Positions 14,597-23,651 of a stretch of 64,000 nt of DNA are shown here, in pieces (the first letter of the stretch is position 1; each line of letters begins with the position of its first letter). Under the pieces are notes generated by a model that worked only from the letters and a program-made list of their open reading frames with translations, did no database searches and was not told the DNA's origin. This stretch comes from an uncultured Chitinophaga sp. (GTDB lineage Bacteria; Bacteroidota; Bacteroidia; Chitinophagales; Chitinophagaceae). The translations under genes were made by a program, and so were the position numbers. Location of the stretch: NCBI RefSeq assembly GCF_902168175.1, contig NZ_CABHOU010000072.1, positions 62,001 through 126,000 of the forward strand, written 5' to 3'.

Positions 14597-15961
14597 ATGT
14601 ATGCAATAGTCGATATAGAAACAACGGGAGGGCATGCCAGTGCCAGCGGTATAACGGAGGTGGCTATTTTCATTTCGGACGGCATAAGGGTTGTGGACCA
14701 GTACCAGACCCTGATCAATCCCGGTGTAAAAATCCCCACTTATATTACGGCCCTTACCGGCATCACCAACGAACTGGTGGCCGACGCGCCTTATTTTGAG
14801 GACGTAGCGGCAGAGATCCACGCCTTCCTGAAAGACCACATCTTTGTGGCTCATCATGTAAACTTTGATTATTCTTTCCTGAAGTTCCATCTGGGGCATT
14901 ACGGGTACGATCTCAATACCAGGAAGTTATGTACTGTAAGGCTAAGCCGGAAGATATTTCCCGGGTTGCCGTCGTATAGTTTAGGTAACCTGTGCCGTTC
15001 GCTGAACGTGCCGCTTATTAACCGGCACCGTGCGGGCGGCGATGCAGAGGCTACGGCTAAACTGTTTGCCATGTTGGTGGAGGCGGATGAAAAGGGCGCT
15101 ATAGCCACTGCATTGAAGCCCAGCTCCAAAGAACACTTCCTGCCGCCTAACCTTTCCGTAGAACAGGTAACCAAACTGCCCGGTATGCCAGGCGTTTATT
15201 ACTTCCACGATGAAAAGGGCAAGGTGATTTACGTGGGCAAGGCGAAGAATATCAGTAAACGGGTGAACAGCCACTTTACGGGTAATAATGCCGGCCGCCA
15301 GCGCCAGGAGTTCCTGCGCAACATCCACAGTATCAGCTTTGAATCTACCGGCACAGAACTGATGGCTTTCATCCTGGAGTCGGTTGAAATCAAACGCCTG
15401 TGGCCTGCCTATAACTATTCACAAAAACGTTTCGAGGCCCGCTTCGGCTTTTACCTGTTCGAAGACCAGGAAGGGTATCTGCGCCTGGCTATTGAAAAAC
15501 GCCGTAAACACACGCTGCCGTTGCATAGCTTTAACTTGCTGCTCGATGGCCGTAACCGCCTTAAATCGCTGGTAACCAGGTTCAGTCTTTGTCCAAAACT
15601 CTGTTTCCTGCAAACCGCTCCCGAATGCGCGGGGCTTGAAGATCATACCTGTAACGGCGCCTGCGAGAAACGAGAGGCACCGGAAGTGTACAACAGCCGG
15701 GTACTGGAAGCTATTAAACATCTTCAGGAAGAGCAGCCATCCTATGTTATCATGGGCAACGGTCGTGGGGTGGGCGAACAGAGTTGTATCCTGATGGAAA
15801 AAGGCCGGTTTTATGGCATGGGCTACTTAACCCGCGATGTCGCTATTACGAATATAGATATGTTGAAGGACTACCTGACGCCTTACCCGGAGAATGAGTA
15901 TATACTGAATTTGATTAAGCAGTATGCGGTGACGAAGGGGATGGCGAGTTTGACGGCTTAA
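14597..15961 (+). CDS. DnaQ-type 3'-5' exonuclease fused to a UvrC/Cho-type GIY-YIG domain
   Basis: A 454-residue protein. Residues 1-165 are a DEDDh exonuclease: DIETTGG (Asp6, Glu8), HHVNFDYSF, and HRAGGDAEAT carrying the final His and Asp. Residues ~193-275 are a GIY-YIG nuclease like the UvrC N-terminus and Cho: PGVYYFHDEKGKVIYVGKAK, an Arg in NISKRVNSHF, and the catalytic Glu in ILESVEIKRLWPAYN. The C-terminal ~180 residues contain several Cys (CPKLCFLQTAPECAGLEDH) that may bind metal. The family is annotated as a PolIII-epsilon-like/excinuclease fusion; a role in DNA repair is likely but the substrate is unknown. Convergent with the helicase gene. Confidence 0.9.
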   Translation: MYAIVDIETTGGHASASGITEVAIFISDGIRVVDQYQTLINPGVKIPTYITALTGITNELVADAPYFEDVAAEIHAFLKDHIFVAHHVNFDYSFLKFHLGHYGYDLNTRKLCTVRLSRKIFPGLPSYSLGNLCRSLNVPLINRHRAGGDAEATAKLFAMLVEADEKGAIATALKPSSKEHFLPPNLSVEQVTKLPGMPGVYYFHDEKGKVIYVGKAKNISKRVNSHFTGNNAGRQRQEFLRNIHSISFESTGTELMAFILESVEIKRLWPAYNYSQKRFEARFGFYLFEDQEGYLRLAIEKRRKHTLPLHSFNLLLDGRNRLKSLVTRFSLCPKLCFLQTAPECAGLEDHTCNGACEKREAPEVYNSRVLEAIKHLQEEQPSYVIMGNGRGVGEQSCILMEKGRFYGMGYLTRDVAITNIDMLKDYLTPYPENEYILNLIKQYAVTKGMASLTA

Positions 15962-16142: not shown

Positions 16143-19100
16143 TCAGTCGTCTTGCTTATCTTCTTCCCATCCTTCCTTCACCTTATCCTCCATCAACTTC
16201 GCCATTCCCGCCACGGCCGCCTGCCCGCCCGCCAACGTCTTCACCTGCACCTGGCCCTTAGCCCCATTCTTCCCACTACGGATAATCAGTTTTGCACCCT
16301 CGGTGGCCACTTCCCAGAAACGGCCGCTTTGCGTAAACCGCCTAAAGATAAGCGCATCGTATGCGCCGGAGGTAACCGGTGCCGGAGGTGCTTCGGGGAA
16401 AAGACTTTGCGGGGCGGGTTTTACTGCTACCGGTGCATCTTCCTTAATATGTTGCAGTTTCTTCAATATCGCATCCATTACACGCTGTGGTTGATGTAAC
16501 CAGTCTTTTGCATATACCGTAATGGTGCGCCAGCCCGCATTCTCCAGCAGGGCAGGGCGTTGGTAGTATTGCTCTATCACATCGGGATTGCTGTAATAAC
16601 TATCATCGTCGATGATCACGCTTAAGGTGTATGCAGTATCGTCCGCATTGGTTTTTACGGCCAGTGAGCAACGGAAGCCGGATTGGCCTACCTGCTCTGC
16701 TACGGTGTAACCGCGTTGTTCTAACTGGTGGCGGATCTGCTGCCTGATCACGGTATCGCCTGCACGTTGTTTGTGCTGGAACTTCTGCGGCAACAAACCG
16801 TCCAGTATCTGCCGTGCCTGTTGCATATTGCCACTGCTAACATTGTCGGAATAGTGCAGGAAACGTTTAAAGTAATTGGCGCCCGCATTGTACTCGTTCG
16901 TGATCTGGTTATGACGGATACTGCTTACCACGGCCATGTGCCTGCGCGCACGACTGAATATCACGTTCAGTCGTTTCTCTCCGCCTTTTTTATTGATCGG
17001 GCCGAAGTTCATCGACATCTTACCACGCTTATCGGGTGCGTAACAAATGCTGAGGATAATGATGTCGCGCTCGTCGCCCTGCACATTCTCCAGGTTTTTT
17101 ACGAACAGGCCGGTAAACTGGTCGTCATCTGTACGTTCCTGCGCCTCTTCAAGTAACTGCGCAAATTCACGGTCTTTCTCCGCAAGTTTGTCCAGCGCGG
17201 ATTCTATCGCGTGTTGCTGCTCCTGGCTAAAGGCTACAATGCCTATGCTTTCGCGGGCCTGCTGCTTTAGCAGGGACCTTACCATTTCTGCAATGTATTC
17301 GGCCTCGCCGACGTTGCTCCGTTTTACATATTGTCCCTGTGAAATGTAGTGGTAACTAATGCTACGGTCGAACAGGGCGGGGGCGTGCTGCGCTGCATCG
17401 GCTGCTTCGTTACTGACTATCGGCGTTTTCTCACTGTGATGAATGGAGCGGTCGGGAATTGTCAGCAGGCTTGCATCATAAAATGCGTGGTTGCTGTAAC
17501 TGATCAGCGTTTCGTACACACTGCGGTAGTGCCATCCTAACATTACGCTATGCATTTTACGTGCGCCCTGTACTAACAAACTGTCTGCATCTGCACTTAA
17601 AATATCATTTTCATCTTCTTCATCAGGTACCTCCAGGTCGTCCGGATCGCCGGTTTTAGCGGCGAAGAAGTCGGTGGGAGGCATTTGTTTTTCGTCGCCT
17701 ACAATAATGGCCTGTGGCGCACGATAGAGCGTAGGTACACCTTCTTCCAGTGTTATCTGGCTGGCCTCGTCGAATATCACGGCGTCAAAGAAGGAGATGT
17801 CCAGTGGCAGACTATCACTTACACTCAAAGGACTCATCAGCCAAACTGGTTTTAAATCTTTTAATACCAAACCACTCTCTTTCTCGGCTAACTCCCGGAT
17901 GCTCTTGTAACGCATGCTTTTGGAGAACTCGTTCTCCAGTATTTTCCTTCCTTCGTTATACTCCTTTTTAAAGTCCTGCTCTTCGTCGGTTAACTGCGAT
18001 AAGGCCCTGTTGCTGATCTCCACATGCTGCTGGAACTGCTGGCGGATGTTCGCCCTTATACAGTCTGCATTCAGCTTCAATAGCTGTTTGTAACAATGTT
18101 TGATTTCACCCGCTGCTTTCTCTATGGCCAGGCTATCTGTATTGGCAAAACTTTTATTGTACTGGTAAATATGCCGCAGCGTTTTATGCGCCATGTTCGC
18201 TTCCAGTTGTTCTGGTGTAAATGGCATGCGGCGTACAGCGTGTTTCATACCATCGGGCATGTTTACATAGTTGCCCAGCGCAGGTAACAGGTCGTCTAAC
18301 GAATCGGTGTTGATGCTGATGTTCTCCAGGTCGTCGAGCAACTCCTGCACCGACTCGCGGTTCGGGTCCTGTAAACATTGACGCAACTGTAAATCAAGCT
18401 TGTGCAACGTTTCATGTAAACCTGCGAGCTGCTTTACTACCCGCGATGGTTCGGGGTGTTTCAGCAGGTATTGTAAAGAGCGGTCGTCGAGTTTGGTACG
18501 CATCCGTTCTATACTCAGCCGCGTCATTTCGAGATTGTCGATCCGGTATTGCTGTTGCAACTGGCGGTTCAGTTCATTCACCCGGTCGGCCGATTCGTAT
18601 TCGGCTTTCAGTTGCTCGAGTATAGTGCTGTAAGCAGGTTTAACTAGGTGTTGGGAGAAGTCGTAAGTATCTTCCAGTTGCTTCTTCAGTTTACGCCAGC
18701 CGCTGTTCAGGAAGCGGAAGAACGCTGTTTCCTGCTGCTGTGCTACCTGTAAAGCGTTCAGCGTGTCCTGCTGACTAAACTTGCGTTTCCAGTTACTGTT
18801 CTGTGCTTCTATCGCTGCCTGGGCCTGCTGCGCCAGTTTGTACTGTACTACCTGCTGGTCAAATTGCTGCGCGGCCGCATTAGCCGGATCAACGAGTTCA
18901 AGGTTGTTCGTTTCTGCCAGTGGCAGCAGGAGGGTGGCGTGTAATATCAGTTGCCTGATACCTTCTATACTGCCGCCATACGTGGCGTCTATGTTGTTTT
19001 CTTCAACCACCCGCACCACTACATCGAGCAGTTGTTGCGTTTGTTGCAGCAGTTTTTCTAACAGGTGATGGGGTTGTGGCGATGTAAACACCTGCTCGTT

Positions 19101-21458
19101 CAACTGACTGATAGGATGTTCGGAAAAAGCAGCGGAGGCGCCGCTGTCTTCCAGCGCTTTACCCAGTTGCTCTATTACCTGTCCAAACTGTTGCCAGTGC
19201 TGGTAATGCGGGATCATCTCTTCCTCCTTTGCCTGCATGTTTTGCAACAAAGGCCGCATGGCTATTACTTTTTCTATCAGGTTGTGTACGCTGATGCCTG
19301 CTACTTCCTGCTCACCCGCATTGGTGGTGTGGTATTGCTCCAGCAGCCCCAGTTGTTCCTGCAAATTGTGCAGCAGCGCGCTCCTTTTCAGGTTAATGCT
19401 GTGCAGGTCCATCTTCTTCTGCAAAAAGTCTTCGTAAGTGGCTTTCAGGTTGCGTATAAACGAACGTTTGTCGCCCTGACTATCATGTATGTAACAGCAC
19501 AATTCATCCAGCCCCTGCTGCTTTAAACGGTGATATACCACATCCAGTGCGGCGCGTTTCTCACATACGAACAACACTGTTTTGCCACGGGCTACGAAGT
19601 CGGCCACGAGGTTGGTAATGGTCTGACTTTTACCTGTTCCCGGAGGACCCTGGATAATATAACTTTCCCCGCTGCGGGCTTGTGAAATGGCGCGGGTTTG
19701 GGTGGGATCGGCGTTGATTACATGGAACCATTCTGAGGGCGGAGGGGCGTCTGCCGGTGCTTCCTGCAAGGGTTTGGGCTGCGCGTTAAACAGCTTGTCA
19801 AACACCTGGTGTGTTACCTGCTGGTCCATTACCTGGTTGTAATCGCGCACCAGGCTCATTTTTTTATAGTTGAAGTTACCCAGTACAATGTTGCATACAT
19901 CGAAGTCCCAGCGATAGGGATTACTCTCTGTTTGCGCCATGGTAAACATCTCCTTCTCTGTAACGGGGTCGGTAATCAGTTGCGGTGCCTCTTCGTCCGT
20001 AACAGGCACCACCAAAGCCTTACTCTCTGCCGGAATACCAGGTTTGTTCAGTCTTTTCAGGTATTGGTTCACGGTTTGCCGCGCTTCCCTGTACACGAGA
20101 TTAATACGTGGTTTATCGGCGTATTGTAATACGATGCCGCGATTGGCACCTTCTATCTGTACCTGCAGCAACTGGTAAAACTGCTCCAGGCTCATCTCGT
20201 CGAGGTCTACATAATCGGGTAGTCTGATGCCGTATAGTTCGTGCAGGAAGTTGGCCAGTACCGGGTTTACTTCTGCTTCGTTGGCATTTACTTTCAGGAT
20301 GTACTGATCTTCTGTAACGCTTTTCTTCTTCTTCAACTCTACGGGAATCAGCAGCAGCGGACTTTGTATACGTTCGTCCGCCTCGTCGCGCAGGTTGTGC
20401 CAGTTCAGGAAAGCGATAACGAGTTTCAACTGCGAGAAGCCAAATTCCTGGATGTCGTGTTGCGCTTCTACCCGTATTTTGTTCAGCGCTGCGGGCAGGT
20501 AAGGATGATCTTCGAAACGCAGGTATTTGTTCAGCGCCATCTCTTTCATCCCTTTTACCTTATCTGCAATTTCCTCGTTCCAGGTAAACAGCAGCTGCGG
20601 CCTTATGCTCTGGTAATGCAGTACCATGGGCACACTGCTGATAGTAAGGTTAATGAAACGGGCGTTGGATTTATAGTACAAAAGCCGGTTGCGGCGACTG
20701 GTGTCGAATAAGCGGTTGCGCAGTTTATTCAGGATAAAATCATTCCGCTCGTTACGCGCCTGATGCACCCAACCTGCTACTTCGGCGAGGTCGAGTTGTT
20801 TCTCCGGGTCGAAGTCGCGGTAATGTTCCAGGCGGTGAATGGCTTCGTATAAATCCTGGGTGCGTTTTTTCCTGTCCAGCTCCGTCATTTCGGTAATGAG
20901 GGTGCCGATGGCAGGGTGTATTTTGGGTTTATAACGACTCGGGTGGGAGCGGTGACTCACAAACAGCGCCAGGTCTTTTTCGTCGTACAGGTCAAGACCC
21001 ATCGCCACACTACCTAACACCAGTCCAAGGCAGAAAATGTCCGTTTGTTCGTCGTGGTGTTGCAGCAGCATTTCATAGCTCTGGTAACCAGGTATATAGG
21101 CCGGATGTTTCACCGGTAGTTGCAGATCGGTTTGTATACGCAGGCTCACCATCGTATCGTCCGTTACTTTCACTTTGTCTACCACTTCAAAGTGCGGCGA
21201 CTGCGAGTTTGTAAGCGCTGCGAGGGCTGGAATATTGAACTGTGGCGGTAAAGCCATTTCCATATTCACGGAAAGCTCCTGCCCGTTGGCAATCAAAGCT
21301 TCTTCCCGCTGGAAAGGCGCCGTCAGCTCTTCTTCATGGATCTTTAATACGGTCCTGAACAGTGGTAGCACGCCTGCAATCACATCGTCTGTCGTGTAAT
21401 CGCCATGCTCAAAAGCGGTAATCAAAAATTGCCTGAATGTTTGTGTCATAATTGCCAT
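16143..21458 (-). CDS. kinase-like / DUF4011 / SF1 helicase / nuclease-like / WGR-like fusion protein
   Basis: A 1771-residue protein, the largest in the window. Domains by eye: residues ~60-225 resemble the C-lobe of a protein kinase (YIPGYQSYEMLL, then TDIFCLGLVLGSVAMGLDL with Asp140) without a recognisable N-lobe or HRD/DFG motifs; ~240-450 match DUF4011 (NKLRNRLFDTSRRNRLLYYK); ~590-1540 are an SF1 (UPF1-like) helicase with Walker A GPPGTGKS (604-611), DEAS (1230-1233), GDEKQMPP and VQGDERD (1459-1465). Residues ~1562-1655 resemble the MTES_1575/Vsr-like PD-(D/E)xK domain (GWRTITVYAKDWL), with usual acidic positions altered. Residues ~1698-1765 resemble WGR (GRFWEV, KNGAKGQVQVK). DUF4011-helicase-Vsr proteins include reported antiphage genes (Hhe type); a defence or nucleic-acid surveillance role here is inference. 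Probable promoter at 21661. Confidence 0.85.
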   Translation of the reverse strand: MAIMTQTFRQFLITAFEHGDYTTDDVIAGVLPLFRTVLKIHEEELTAPFQREEALIANGQELSVNMEMALPPQFNIPALAALTNSQSPHFEVVDKVKVTDDTMVSLRIQTDLQLPVKHPAYIPGYQSYEMLLQHHDEQTDIFCLGLVLGSVAMGLDLYDEKDLALFVSHRSHPSRYKPKIHPAIGTLITEMTELDRKKRTQDLYEAIHRLEHYRDFDPEKQLDLAEVAGWVHQARNERNDFILNKLRNRLFDTSRRNRLLYYKSNARFINLTISSVPMVLHYQSIRPQLLFTWNEEIADKVKGMKEMALNKYLRFEDHPYLPAALNKIRVEAQHDIQEFGFSQLKLVIAFLNWHNLRDEADERIQSPLLLIPVELKKKKSVTEDQYILKVNANEAEVNPVLANFLHELYGIRLPDYVDLDEMSLEQFYQLLQVQIEGANRGIVLQYADKPRINLVYREARQTVNQYLKRLNKPGIPAESKALVVPVTDEEAPQLITDPVTEKEMFTMAQTESNPYRWDFDVCNIVLGNFNYKKMSLVRDYNQVMDQQVTHQVFDKLFNAQPKPLQEAPADAPPPSEWFHVINADPTQTRAISQARSGESYIIQGPPGTGKSQTITNLVADFVARGKTVLFVCEKRAALDVVYHRLKQQGLDELCCYIHDSQGDKRSFIRNLKATYEDFLQKKMDLHSINLKRSALLHNLQEQLGLLEQYHTTNAGEQEVAGISVHNLIEKVIAMRPLLQNMQAKEEEMIPHYQHWQQFGQVIEQLGKALEDSGASAAFSEHPISQLNEQVFTSPQPHHLLEKLLQQTQQLLDVVVRVVEENNIDATYGGSIEGIRQLILHATLLLPLAETNNLELVDPANAAAQQFDQQVVQYKLAQQAQAAIEAQNSNWKRKFSQQDTLNALQVAQQQETAFFRFLNSGWRKLKKQLEDTYDFSQHLVKPAYSTILEQLKAEYESADRVNELNRQLQQQYRIDNLEMTRLSIERMRTKLDDRSLQYLLKHPEPSRVVKQLAGLHETLHKLDLQLRQCLQDPNRESVQELLDDLENISINTDSLDDLLPALGNYVNMPDGMKHAVRRMPFTPEQLEANMAHKTLRHIYQYNKSFANTDSLAIEKAAGEIKHCYKQLLKLNADCIRANIRQQFQQHVEISNRALSQLTDEEQDFKKEYNEGRKILENEFSKSMRYKSIRELAEKESGLVLKDLKPVWLMSPLSVSDSLPLDISFFDAVIFDEASQITLEEGVPTLYRAPQAIIVGDEKQMPPTDFFAAKTGDPDDLEVPDEEDENDILSADADSLLVQGARKMHSVMLGWHYRSVYETLISYSNHAFYDASLLTIPDRSIHHSEKTPIVSNEAADAAQHAPALFDRSISYHYISQGQYVKRSNVGEAEYIAEMVRSLLKQQARESIGIVAFSQEQQHAIESALDKLAEKDREFAQLLEEAQERTDDDQFTGLFVKNLENVQGDERDIIILSICYAPDKRGKMSMNFGPINKKGGEKRLNVIFSRARRHMAVVSSIRHNQITNEYNAGANYFKRFLHYSDNVSSGNMQQARQILDGLLPQKFQHKQRAGDTVIRQQIRHQLEQRGYTVAEQVGQSGFRCSLAVKTNADDTAYTLSVIIDDDSYYSNPDVIEQYYQRPALLENAGWRTITVYAKDWLHQPQRVMDAILKKLQHIKEDAPVAVKPAPQSLFPEAPPAPVTSGAYDALIFRRFTQSGRFWEVATEGAKLIIRSGKNGAKGQVQVKTLAGGQAAVAGMAKLMEDKVKEGWEEDKQDD

Positions 21459-21881: not shown

Positions 21882-23651
21882 TTATCCTAAAAACTGTAAT
21901 TCCCCCAACCCTTTATACAAGCCTTCTTCCTTCATCATCAGCTCTTCATGTGTACCACCTTCTACTATGCGGCCTTTGTCCAGTACGAGAATGAGGTCGG
22001 AGTTGCGGATGGTCGATAAACGGTGGGCGATTACGATGGAGGTACGGCCTTTCATCAGTTTTTCGAGGGCATCCTGCACCAGGCGTTCCGATTCGGAGTC
22101 GAGGGCAGAAGTGGCTTCGTCGAGGATGAGGATGCGTGGGTCTTTGAGTACAGCGCGGGCAATGGCGATGCGCTGGCGTTGTCCGCCGGAGAGTTGTACG
22201 CCACGTTCGCCTACCACGGTATCCAGTCCTTCGGGGAAGGCCTGGATGAAGTCCCAGGCGTTGGCCTGGCGGGCAGCGGCGATGATGGAGCCTTCAGGAG
22301 CATTGGTGTCGCCGTACGCAATGTTTTCGCGAATGGTGCCACCGAACAGGAAGACATCCTGCGGCACTACGGCCATCTGGCGGCGAAGGTCGGTTAAATC
22401 GAAGCTGGAAGCTGGTTTGCCATCGAAACTAATACTGCCGCTTACCGGATCGTAAAAACGCAGCAGCAGGGAAACAACGGTGGACTTACCTGCGCCGCTC
22501 GGGCCTACCAGGGCTACCTGCCAGCCTGCCTGCACATCAAACGTTACATCGTTCAGCACGGATATATCTTTACGCGAAGGGTAACGGAAGCTCACTTCAT
22601 CGAAGCTAAGCGCCCCGGTGATCGGTTGCCTTACGTCTGCGGTAAGTGAAAGAATTTCCACCGGCTCGTCCAGTATTTCCAGCAGGTTTTCCGTAGCGCC
22701 TATGCTTTTCTGTATACGGGAGTATATTTCAGCCAGTCCGCTAATGGAGCCGCCAATGAAACCGGTGTAGATCACAAAACTGAAAAGCTGGCCAGTTTCC
22801 AGTTCATGGTTAGCCATCAGTATGGCCCCGCGCCATATAACGGCCACCATGGCGCCGAACAAACCGAGAATGATAAAGGAAGTGAAAACGCCCTGGTATT
22901 TACCTACGCGAATGCCGGTTTTGGCTACATCGTCGGTTTTCTTTTTATAACGGCCTATCTCAAAAAGCTCATTTGCAAAGGCTTTTACGTTAAATATGCC
23001 CTGGAGTGTTTCCTCAACGATAGTATTGGAATCGGCCACCTGCGCCTGCGCTTCTTTGGAAAAGCGGCGAATCGACTTACCAAATATCACGGCCACTATG
23101 GAAATAACCGGGATGATGGCCAGCATAAACAGGGTCAGTTTCCAGCTGGTAATACCCAGCAGCACTATACCGCCCACGATCATAATGATCTGGCGGATGA
23201 ATTCGGCCAGGGTAGTGGTAAACGTATCCTGTAACTGGGCAATATCTGCGGAAATGCGGCTGTTCAGTTCTCCTACGCGACGTTCGGCAAAGAACTTCAT
23301 CGGTAGCCTGATGAGGTGACTATAAGTAGCCTGGCGTAAAGAAGCCAGTGATTTTTCGGTAACGGTTACAAATATATTGATCCGGAAGAAGGAGAGTATG
23401 GCCTGGGCCACCAATACGCCTACCAGCATGGCGCCAGTGGTATTGATGTGCTCCATGATGTTGCCCTTTTGCCCGGCATCCACCAAGTTGCCGAGTAATT
23501 TCGGGAACAGCAGGGTAGCGCTGCTCGACAGGAAAAGCATCAACATACCCAGCGCAAACAGCCAGCGGTGTGGTTTGGCATATTGATATAACCTTGCAAT
23601 CTTCTTTAATCCCGAGGCAGTTACACGTGGTTTTTTAGCAGCTTGTTCCAT
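21882..23651 (-). CDS. ABC exporter, fused permease and ATPase (MsbA-like)
   Basis: A 589-residue half-transporter. Six membrane helices lie in residues ~30-320 and the nucleotide-binding domain at ~345-585: Walker A GPSGAGKST (~382-390), Q-loop PQDVFLFGGT, signature LSGGQRQR, Walker B ILILDEATSALD, and H-loop IAHRLST. All catalytic residues are present. Type IV exporters of this sort export lipids or drugs; the substrate is unknown, and MsbA-like lipid flipping is one option. A -7 box 19 bases upstream (minus strand 23671-23679) supports its own promoter. The 11-bp inverted arrays follow 13 bases after the stop. Confidence 0.92.
   Translation of the reverse strand: MEQAAKKPRVTASGLKKIARLYQYAKPHRWLFALGMLMLFLSSSATLLFPKLLGNLVDAGQKGNIMEHINTTGAMLVGVLVAQAILSFFRINIFVTVTEKSLASLRQATYSHLIRLPMKFFAERRVGELNSRISADIAQLQDTFTTTLAEFIRQIIMIVGGIVLLGITSWKLTLFMLAIIPVISIVAVIFGKSIRRFSKEAQAQVADSNTIVEETLQGIFNVKAFANELFEIGRYKKKTDDVAKTGIRVGKYQGVFTSFIILGLFGAMVAVIWRGAILMANHELETGQLFSFVIYTGFIGGSISGLAEIYSRIQKSIGATENLLEILDEPVEILSLTADVRQPITGALSFDEVSFRYPSRKDISVLNDVTFDVQAGWQVALVGPSGAGKSTVVSLLLRFYDPVSGSISFDGKPASSFDLTDLRRQMAVVPQDVFLFGGTIRENIAYGDTNAPEGSIIAAARQANAWDFIQAFPEGLDTVVGERGVQLSGGQRQRIAIARAVLKDPRILILDEATSALDSESERLVQDALEKLMKGRTSIVIAHRLSTIRNSDLILVLDKGRIVEGGTHEELMMKEEGLYKGLGELQFLG

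Follow-up and report, generated by a model that had tools for sequence, protein, structure and literature searches.

The window, that is, the whole 64,000-nucleotide stretch of DNA from an uncultured Chitinophaga sp. that was analysed, encodes a giant protein in which a kinase-like segment, DUF4011, an SF1 helicase, a nuclease-like domain and a WGR domain are fused, raising the question of what such a combination does and whether it acts alone. The initial annotation had taken it for a possible single-gene surveillance or defence protein. Its description of the gene as a single frame was borne out: the interval 16143-21458 reads on the minus strand from an ATG start through 1771 aa with zero internal stops, and frame 1 of its plus strand contains many stops. 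The gene, its parts and its two neighbours are as follows.

16143..21458, minus strand: whole gene, 1771 aa (open frame without internal stop)
20754..21458, minus strand: residues 1-235, protein-kinase C-lobe-like segment with no N-lobe and no catalytic-loop or DFG signature (profiles, hhalign)
20244..20714, minus strand: residues 249-405, DUF4011 (Pfam)
16920..19709, minus strand: residues 584-1513, SF1 helicase core (AAA_11/AAA_12) with a long insert inside (Pfam, alignment)
19626..19649, minus strand: residues 604-611, Walker A motif GPPGTGKS (motif in alignment)
16455..16742, minus strand: residues 1573-1668, MTES_1575 (Vsr-like) domain, remodelled (Pfam, residue tallies)
16152..16331, minus strand: residues 1710-1769, WGR domain (Pfam)
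21882..23651, minus strand: upstream neighbour, ABC transporter (Pfam; context)
14597..15961, plus strand: convergent neighbour, exonuclease (RNase_T) with GIY-YIG (Pfam; context, possible functional link)

Domain architecture and remodelling of the nuclease-like domain

All four domains named in the initial annotation beyond the N-terminus scored above their Pfam cut-offs, namely DUF4011 (residues 249-405, 2.2e-16), AAA_11/AAA_12 (residues 584-1513, 1.4e-15 and 1.7e-19, respectively), MTES_1575 (residues 1573-1668, 5.8e-18, 65.2 bits against a cut-off of 38.2) and WGR (residues 1710-1769, 8e-8, 32.7 bits against 22; 1.1e-14 and 2.1e-16 in two relatives), and DUF3320 had no Pfam match in the window protein. 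The helicase motifs GPPGTGKSQT, FDEASQI, VGD..QMPP, NVQGDERDI and GGEKRLNVI are kept in 23 aligned proteins, the window protein included, with Gln for Glu in the NVQGDERDI motif of genome G003. The architecture is not a chance juxtaposition, since it recurs in Chitinophagaceae, Pedobacter, genomes G274 and G302, and Sphingomonas. The G003 copy (L039:7101-12770), of 1889 aa, carries an extra acidic low-complexity stretch of approximately 130 residues between DUF4011 and the helicase.

The N-terminal 235 residues, previously described as shaped like a kinase C-lobe without HRD or DFG, are recognisable by an LH...VAPF helix followed by Y.PGY.SYE, TDIF.LG and a closing R...DL segment. In the window protein the Pfam Pkinase match lies below the cut-off (E 0.086, 12.7 bits against 31.7); among 27 aligned N-termini, Pkinase was matched at E<=1 by 16 (best 4.8e-4) and each other Pfam family by at most two, and in the three N-termini with match positions the match corresponds to the C-lobe (154-253 of 263). 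Similarly, the PADLOC profile MkoA matched 21 of the 27, covering profile positions 189-276 of 1112 in the window protein (7.5e-4 for its N-terminus alone). Profile-profile comparison of the N-terminal alignment with seven bona fide kinases (hhalign) gave a probability of 71% and an E-value of 3.7e-5, against 0.3% for an unrelated control, and PDB sequence searches returned kinases only (four of four and ten of ten matches), all at E 0.18 or worse. Neither HxD[ILVM]K nor DFG was found in any of 31 N-termini; two of them (C. chungangae and C. barathri) do contain a bare HRD, but approximately 18 residues ahead of the APE-like segment, which we read as too near for a catalytic loop. The earlier description of the window protein thus stood: the resemblance is weak but reproducible, and the catalytic signatures are missing. 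A kinase C-lobe-like, non-catalytic N-terminus is supported by these profile data, if not proven.

To place the nuclease-like domain, its residues were tallied across homologue types. A homologue at 1e-40 or better occurs in 79 of 79 Chitinophaga genomes, of which 22 carry the window type, three an intermediate type (shorter, without the kinase-like part and without WGR) and 54 other types only; the window-type frame is intact in 19 of the 22 and in pieces in G006, G082 and G092. Every one of 27 type-B homologues, mostly proteins of about 1550 aa, has both the Glu of FE and the Asp of ID[LMI], whereas the 20 window-type proteins (including a divergent second copy of G084) and the three intermediates have neither, the Asp being replaced by Ser in 22 and Thr in one. 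By analogy with Vsr, the lost residues are presumed to be catalytic. Type B is less strict elsewhere (Glu of IECDG in 19 of 27, His of YH in 21 of 27); in window-type and intermediate proteins the Gly of CDG has become Asp or Glu and the His has become Tyr, with the Asp of CDG retained. This first tally was made without the broken G082 copy and five proteins in which no anchor motif was found (G005, two of G009, G046 and G053). In a wider set of 31 proteins, the residue preceding the former Asp is Cys in every case and the Asp position holds Ser in 24, Thr in two and Asp in five, all five from Sphingomonas; G274 has His at this position. As the replacements are themselves conserved, the MTES_1575 part is a specialised domain, and nuclease activity of the usual kind is improbable. 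A DUF4011-helicase-MTES_1575 protein need not be a nuclease.

Neighbouring metallopeptidase genes in relatives

Scanning 84,980 species genomes by pattern and tblastn, with the N-terminal alignment as query, yielded 33 loci, 13 from Chitinophaga and 20 from other organisms, namely Flavihumibacter, Terrimonas, Niabella, Flavipsychrobacter, Chitinophagaceae/Sphingobacteriales, three Pedobacter and seven of Sphingomonas type, five of the Sphingomonas loci being near-identical and counted as one lineage. The scan was not exhaustive, as G274 and G302 surfaced only in a phylum-sample search. Neighbourhoods were covered for 18 of the 20 loci outside Chitinophaga, the broken L119 and L124 being left out. 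A gene for a protein of 374-443 aa precedes the helicase gene on the same strand in 17 of these 18; it is adjacent in 16, with a gap of between -29 and 172 bp (-4 for Sphingomonas), and separated from the helicase gene by one gene in L111; L114 was the one neighbourhood of the 18 with no such gene beside the helicase. Since G274 and G302 display the same order with a 1-bp gap, an M48-type metallopeptidase gene precedes that of the helicase in 19 of the 20 neighbourhoods covered outside Chitinophaga. HELxH and ExxxD are invariant in all 17 upstream proteins, and all 17 match Peptidase_M48 (Pfam), with weaker SprT-like matches in 12. The sole PDB match was an HtpX homologue (3cqb, E 0.003), and PADLOC profiles gave marginal matches only (two of 17 at best 0.022, one at 0.0023). 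The Flavipsychrobacter copy (L112:8938-14112) is without WGR and yet has the peptidase gene, so that the link between WGR and peptidase is not a strict one.

The two genes also co-occur across genomes. In a phylum sample of 395 genomes, the N-terminal domain was found in three (the window genome, G274 and G302) and a full-length peptidase in two, G274 and G302, while the peptidase matches in 23 further genomes did not exceed 49.9 bits; within the Pedobacter frigidisoli genus (145 genomes), domain and peptidase occur in the same three. Hypergeometric values for this co-occurrence are 1.3e-5 (phylum) and 2.0e-6 (Pedobacter genus), flattered by taking genomes as independent. A sequence-model search recovered the peptidase in none of the 79 Chitinophaga genomes, the window genome included, and in ten of ten control genomes; the model had been built with sequences from eight of these and was independent of the other two, G274 and G302. 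The window genome consequently holds no two-gene peptidase-helicase unit. The gene of 400 aa upstream of the second G084 copy was considered as a peptidase candidate and rejected, as it reads like a membrane transporter. Among the openly licensed literature matches listed, judged by title and start of abstract, nothing resembled an M48-helicase pair. This peptidase gene had gone unremarked in the initial annotation, as had the lost nuclease residues and the vertical inheritance at a fixed locus described below.

Locus, inheritance and selection in Chitinophaga

The window-type gene lies within 5.3 kb of the ABC transporter gene in 21 of 22 carriers (no match at 1e-180 in G092) and, likewise in 21 of 22, no more than 6.3 kb from the exonuclease/GIY-YIG gene (125 kb in G062). 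Pairwise identities of the helicase track those of both flanks (r 0.94 for the exonuclease in 17 genomes, 0.96 for the ABC transporter in 18), much as the flanks track each other (r 0.93). The window-type helicase is thus vertically inherited, mostly at one syntenic Chitinophaga locus. Furthermore, dN/dS was at most 0.12 in all 46 computable cells of 49 domain-by-pair cells, demonstrating strong purifying selection on every domain, including the kinase-like and nuclease-like ones. The initial annotation had named conservation at a syntenic housekeeping locus throughout the Chitinophagaceae as grounds for doubting a defence role. These grounds apply by half: the fixed, vertically inherited locus was found within Chitinophaga, but none of the 13 same-family genomes of other genera listed in the phylum sample carries the N-terminal domain. 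PMC10250203 reports that a defence hotspot of Pseudomonas aeruginosa has a large DUF4011 gene next to it, the core genes that flank the hotspot occurring in every isolate, a situation that parallels the lineage-core status of the Chitinophaga helicase.

In a tree of 47 rows, built by a quick method, Sphingomonas is outermost and the Bacteroidota split into two groups. In one, of 16 rows (support 93), the peptidase adjoins the helicase gene in 11 and is absent from L114, the second G084 copy and the three intermediates; in the other, of 20 Chitinophaga rows (support 98), no peptidase lies beside the gene. Loss of the peptidase would be a simpler history than gain, although the root relies on distant outgroups and gain is possible. 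The remodelling of the MTES_1575 domain is common to peptidase-bearing relatives and so gives no sign of decay following such a loss.

Several further features of these neighbourhoods were recorded. In several Chitinophaga, genes that read as receptor-like, histidine-kinase-like and response-regulator-like lie between the ABC transporter and the helicase; they are not constant and were rejected as partners. Three genes separate helicase and exonuclease gene in G031 (L034:3695-6865), one of which starts, by reading, with a repressor-like helix-turn-helix. The intermediates G023, G069 and G091 are each directly followed by a mutually related gene (L042:12290-13627, L065:11742-13076 and L066:11712-13049); the two that were scanned are RmuC (Pfam 1e-76 and 4e-77), possibly a different partner of this type. 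Type-B helicases of other Chitinophaga likewise occupy shared lineage-specific loci (L043, L049, L067-L088). Interrupted copies, reflecting either real decay or assembly error, were seen in Niabella, two Sphingomonas and two Chitinophaga (L113, L119, L124, L061 and L064).

The exonuclease/GIY-YIG gene is present in all 79 Chitinophaga genomes, with or without a window-type helicase. It also adjoins the peptidase-helicase pair in Pedobacter ureilyticus (L115, 5859-7262), and in G009 and G005 (L046 13353-14720 and L047 12958-14337) it lies near another, distant homologue with a SAICAR-synthetase-like gene between. Its recurrence may reflect either a hotspot or a functional link.

Possible functions and known systems

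Comparison with known defence families confirmed the kinships proposed earlier. The PADLOC profile PDC-S37 matched at 1e-216, its best stretch pairing residues 514-1680 with positions 215-1350 of 1550, and did not match the N-terminal part alone; Hhe matched at 8e-103 and MkoA, partially, at 2.2e-35. The curated cut-offs for Hhe (NF042953, 486.3 of 2000 bits) and ProA (NF058533, 721.6 of 1500 bits) were missed. By these profiles the window protein falls within the broad DUF4011-SF1-Vsr helicase kind. PDC-S37 drew no mention in a search of openly licensed literature.

The absence of an obvious defence island, as noted previously, also held among relatives. When 127 neighbour proteins of 14 relatives, out of 162 in all, were pooled, a PADLOC scan (L107 and L157 being dropped as near-duplicates of L105 and L156, along with 17 others, mostly short or repeated) found no family matching more than three proteins at 1e-10, and the best 25 of 54 matched families were all GajB or RTasHel, which are probably explained by three UvrD helicases (Pfam); within this scope no defence island was seen around the helicase, although rarer defence genes may lie among the other 29 families. 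A pattern scan of a named viral-contig collection found no relatives of the N-terminus or the peptidase, the Sphingomonas peptidase had no match in a named plasmid collection, and no place in named plasmid and phage collections covered 80% of the helicase, partial matches occurring in 415 plasmid and two phage records. One of these, the human-faecal phage record MT836269.1 (6102-9545), covers 36% of the protein at 34% identity, from the helicase to the nuclease part. Separately, L161 (G037) holds a 1726-residue frame whose letters suggest a protein kinase of degenerate appearance and, after it, an ATPase-like region.

Taken together, we tentatively favour, at a little under an even chance, the reading that the window protein is the orphaned half of a two-component surveillance system of peptidase and helicase, in which it would be the ATP-driven sensor, with antiphage or genome-integrity immunity as its likeliest purpose. 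The WGR domain and helicase would recognise abnormal nucleic-acid ends or lesions, arising from damage or from intermediates of phage replication; docking or allosteric surfaces would be provided by the pseudokinase lobe and the pseudonuclease; and ATP-driven motion along the nucleic acid would switch on or feed the peptidase, whose cleavage of a protein target would stop the phage or the cell. In Chitinophaga, where there are neither nuclease residues nor a peptidase, the helicase would have to remodel or displace complexes or work with an effector encoded elsewhere. Immunity is favoured because of the kinship to antiphage models, the patchy spread of this helicase type and the occurrence of the same gene pair in Sphingomonas, a different phylum. 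Against it stand the lack of a visible defence island, the missed Hhe and ProA cut-offs, the more core-gene-like vertical inheritance at one Chitinophaga locus, and the lack of 80% coverage on plasmids or phages and of viral-contig relatives of the N-terminus or peptidase.

The alternative that survives best, although we consider it unlikely, is the processing of DNA-protein lesions, in which the helicase tracks along DNA and exposes a stuck protein for the metallopeptidase to cut, WGR reading the damaged DNA; in Chitinophaga the excision partner would be the neighbouring exonuclease/GIY-YIG protein. In PARPs, WGR reads DNA ends. Repair is suggested by the kinds of enzyme involved, including WGR and an HExxH peptidase (SprT-like in 12 of 17, if more weakly than M48), by the want of a visible defence island, and by the proximity of the exonuclease gene in 21 of 22 carriers and beside the Pedobacter ureilyticus pair. 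A precedent is found in the available part of PMC12279946, where unfolding by FANCJ permits cleavage by SPRTN in DNA-protein crosslink repair. However, a spread as patchy as three of 145 genomes (Pedobacter genus) and three of 395 (phylum) would be odd for repair, the exonuclease gene occurs in every Chitinophaga genome regardless of helicase type, and the nearest named relatives are antiphage models.

One machine could serve immunity and lesion repair together. A further proposal, which we regard as rather doubtful, is that of a nucleic-acid-activated proteolysis machine, in which a WGR-bearing SF1 helicase would drive a dedicated M48 metallopeptidase, with a dead kinase lobe and dead nuclease as scaffolds, triggered by damaged or phage nucleic acid or by a stuck protein and serving immunity, protein-DNA crosslink removal or both, the helicase alone persisting as a lineage-core factor in Chitinophaga.

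Less probable still is a domesticated leftover, the effectors having been lost in Chitinophaga and the helicase having taken on an unrelated task on nucleic acids, for instance the clearing of transcription complexes or R-loops. The absent peptidase, replaced nuclease residues and vertical inheritance would suit this explanation, as would the homologues at 1e-40 in every Chitinophaga genome and the shared loci of type B; strong purifying selection on all accessory domains and nuclease remodelling in peptidase-bearing relatives count against it. A single-gene antiphage protein of Hhe type with an active nuclease, towards which the comparison in the initial annotation pointed, is very improbable, for despite the strong PDC-S37 and Hhe profile matches it was set back by the replaced MTES_1575 residues, the missed NCBIfam cut-offs and the peptidase gene beside the helicase in relatives.

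If the pair is indeed a sensor helicase gating a metallopeptidase, proteolysis encoded by a separate gene would join the giant DUF4011/Vsr helicases, and the pair of Pedobacter, Terrimonas and Sphingomonas would offer a tractable two-gene unit for nucleic-acid-activated bacterial proteolysis. Chitinophaga represents a natural experiment: the ATPase is under strong selection there although peptidase and nuclease residues are both missing, which invites the question of what the motor does alone.

With PDC-S37, that is, DUF4011-SF1-MTES_1575-DUF3320 proteins, the window protein shares, as its best stretch, residues 514-1680, but it adds the kinase-like N-terminus and WGR, gives no DUF3320 match and has a remodelled nuclease domain, and its relatives have a peptidase gene alongside. 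Mokosh MkoA has a kinase-helicase layout; the window protein resembles it over the helicase and, weakly, the N-terminus, but is without kinase catalytic signatures and carries DUF4011, MTES_1575 and WGR in addition, the neighbour in its relatives being an M48 metallopeptidase. FANCJ-SPRTN, as presented in the available part of PMC12279946, has in common the logic of a helicase with a metalloprotease; the likeness is in logic alone, the peptidase being best matched by M48 and not SprT. Hachiman, described in PMC12278908 as damage-triggered helicase-effector immunity, offers a precedent for the favoured reading. A last comparison, and a second precedent, is with the giant MTES_1575-type proteins of PMC3710099, presumably Anantharaman et al. 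2013. In the accessible section of that source these combine HEPN, a transglutaminase-like peptidase, an SF-I helicase, Vsr and a wHTH; the wHTH was proposed to recognise invading DNA, and the cutting of proteins to add another layer of defence. On that description both have a giant SF1 helicase with a Vsr-fold domain, a putative reader of DNA at the C-terminus and a component resembling a peptidase, whereas the window type differs in that its M48 peptidase is a separate gene in relatives, WGR stands in for wHTH and a kinase-like lobe for HEPN, and the Vsr-type site is remodelled.
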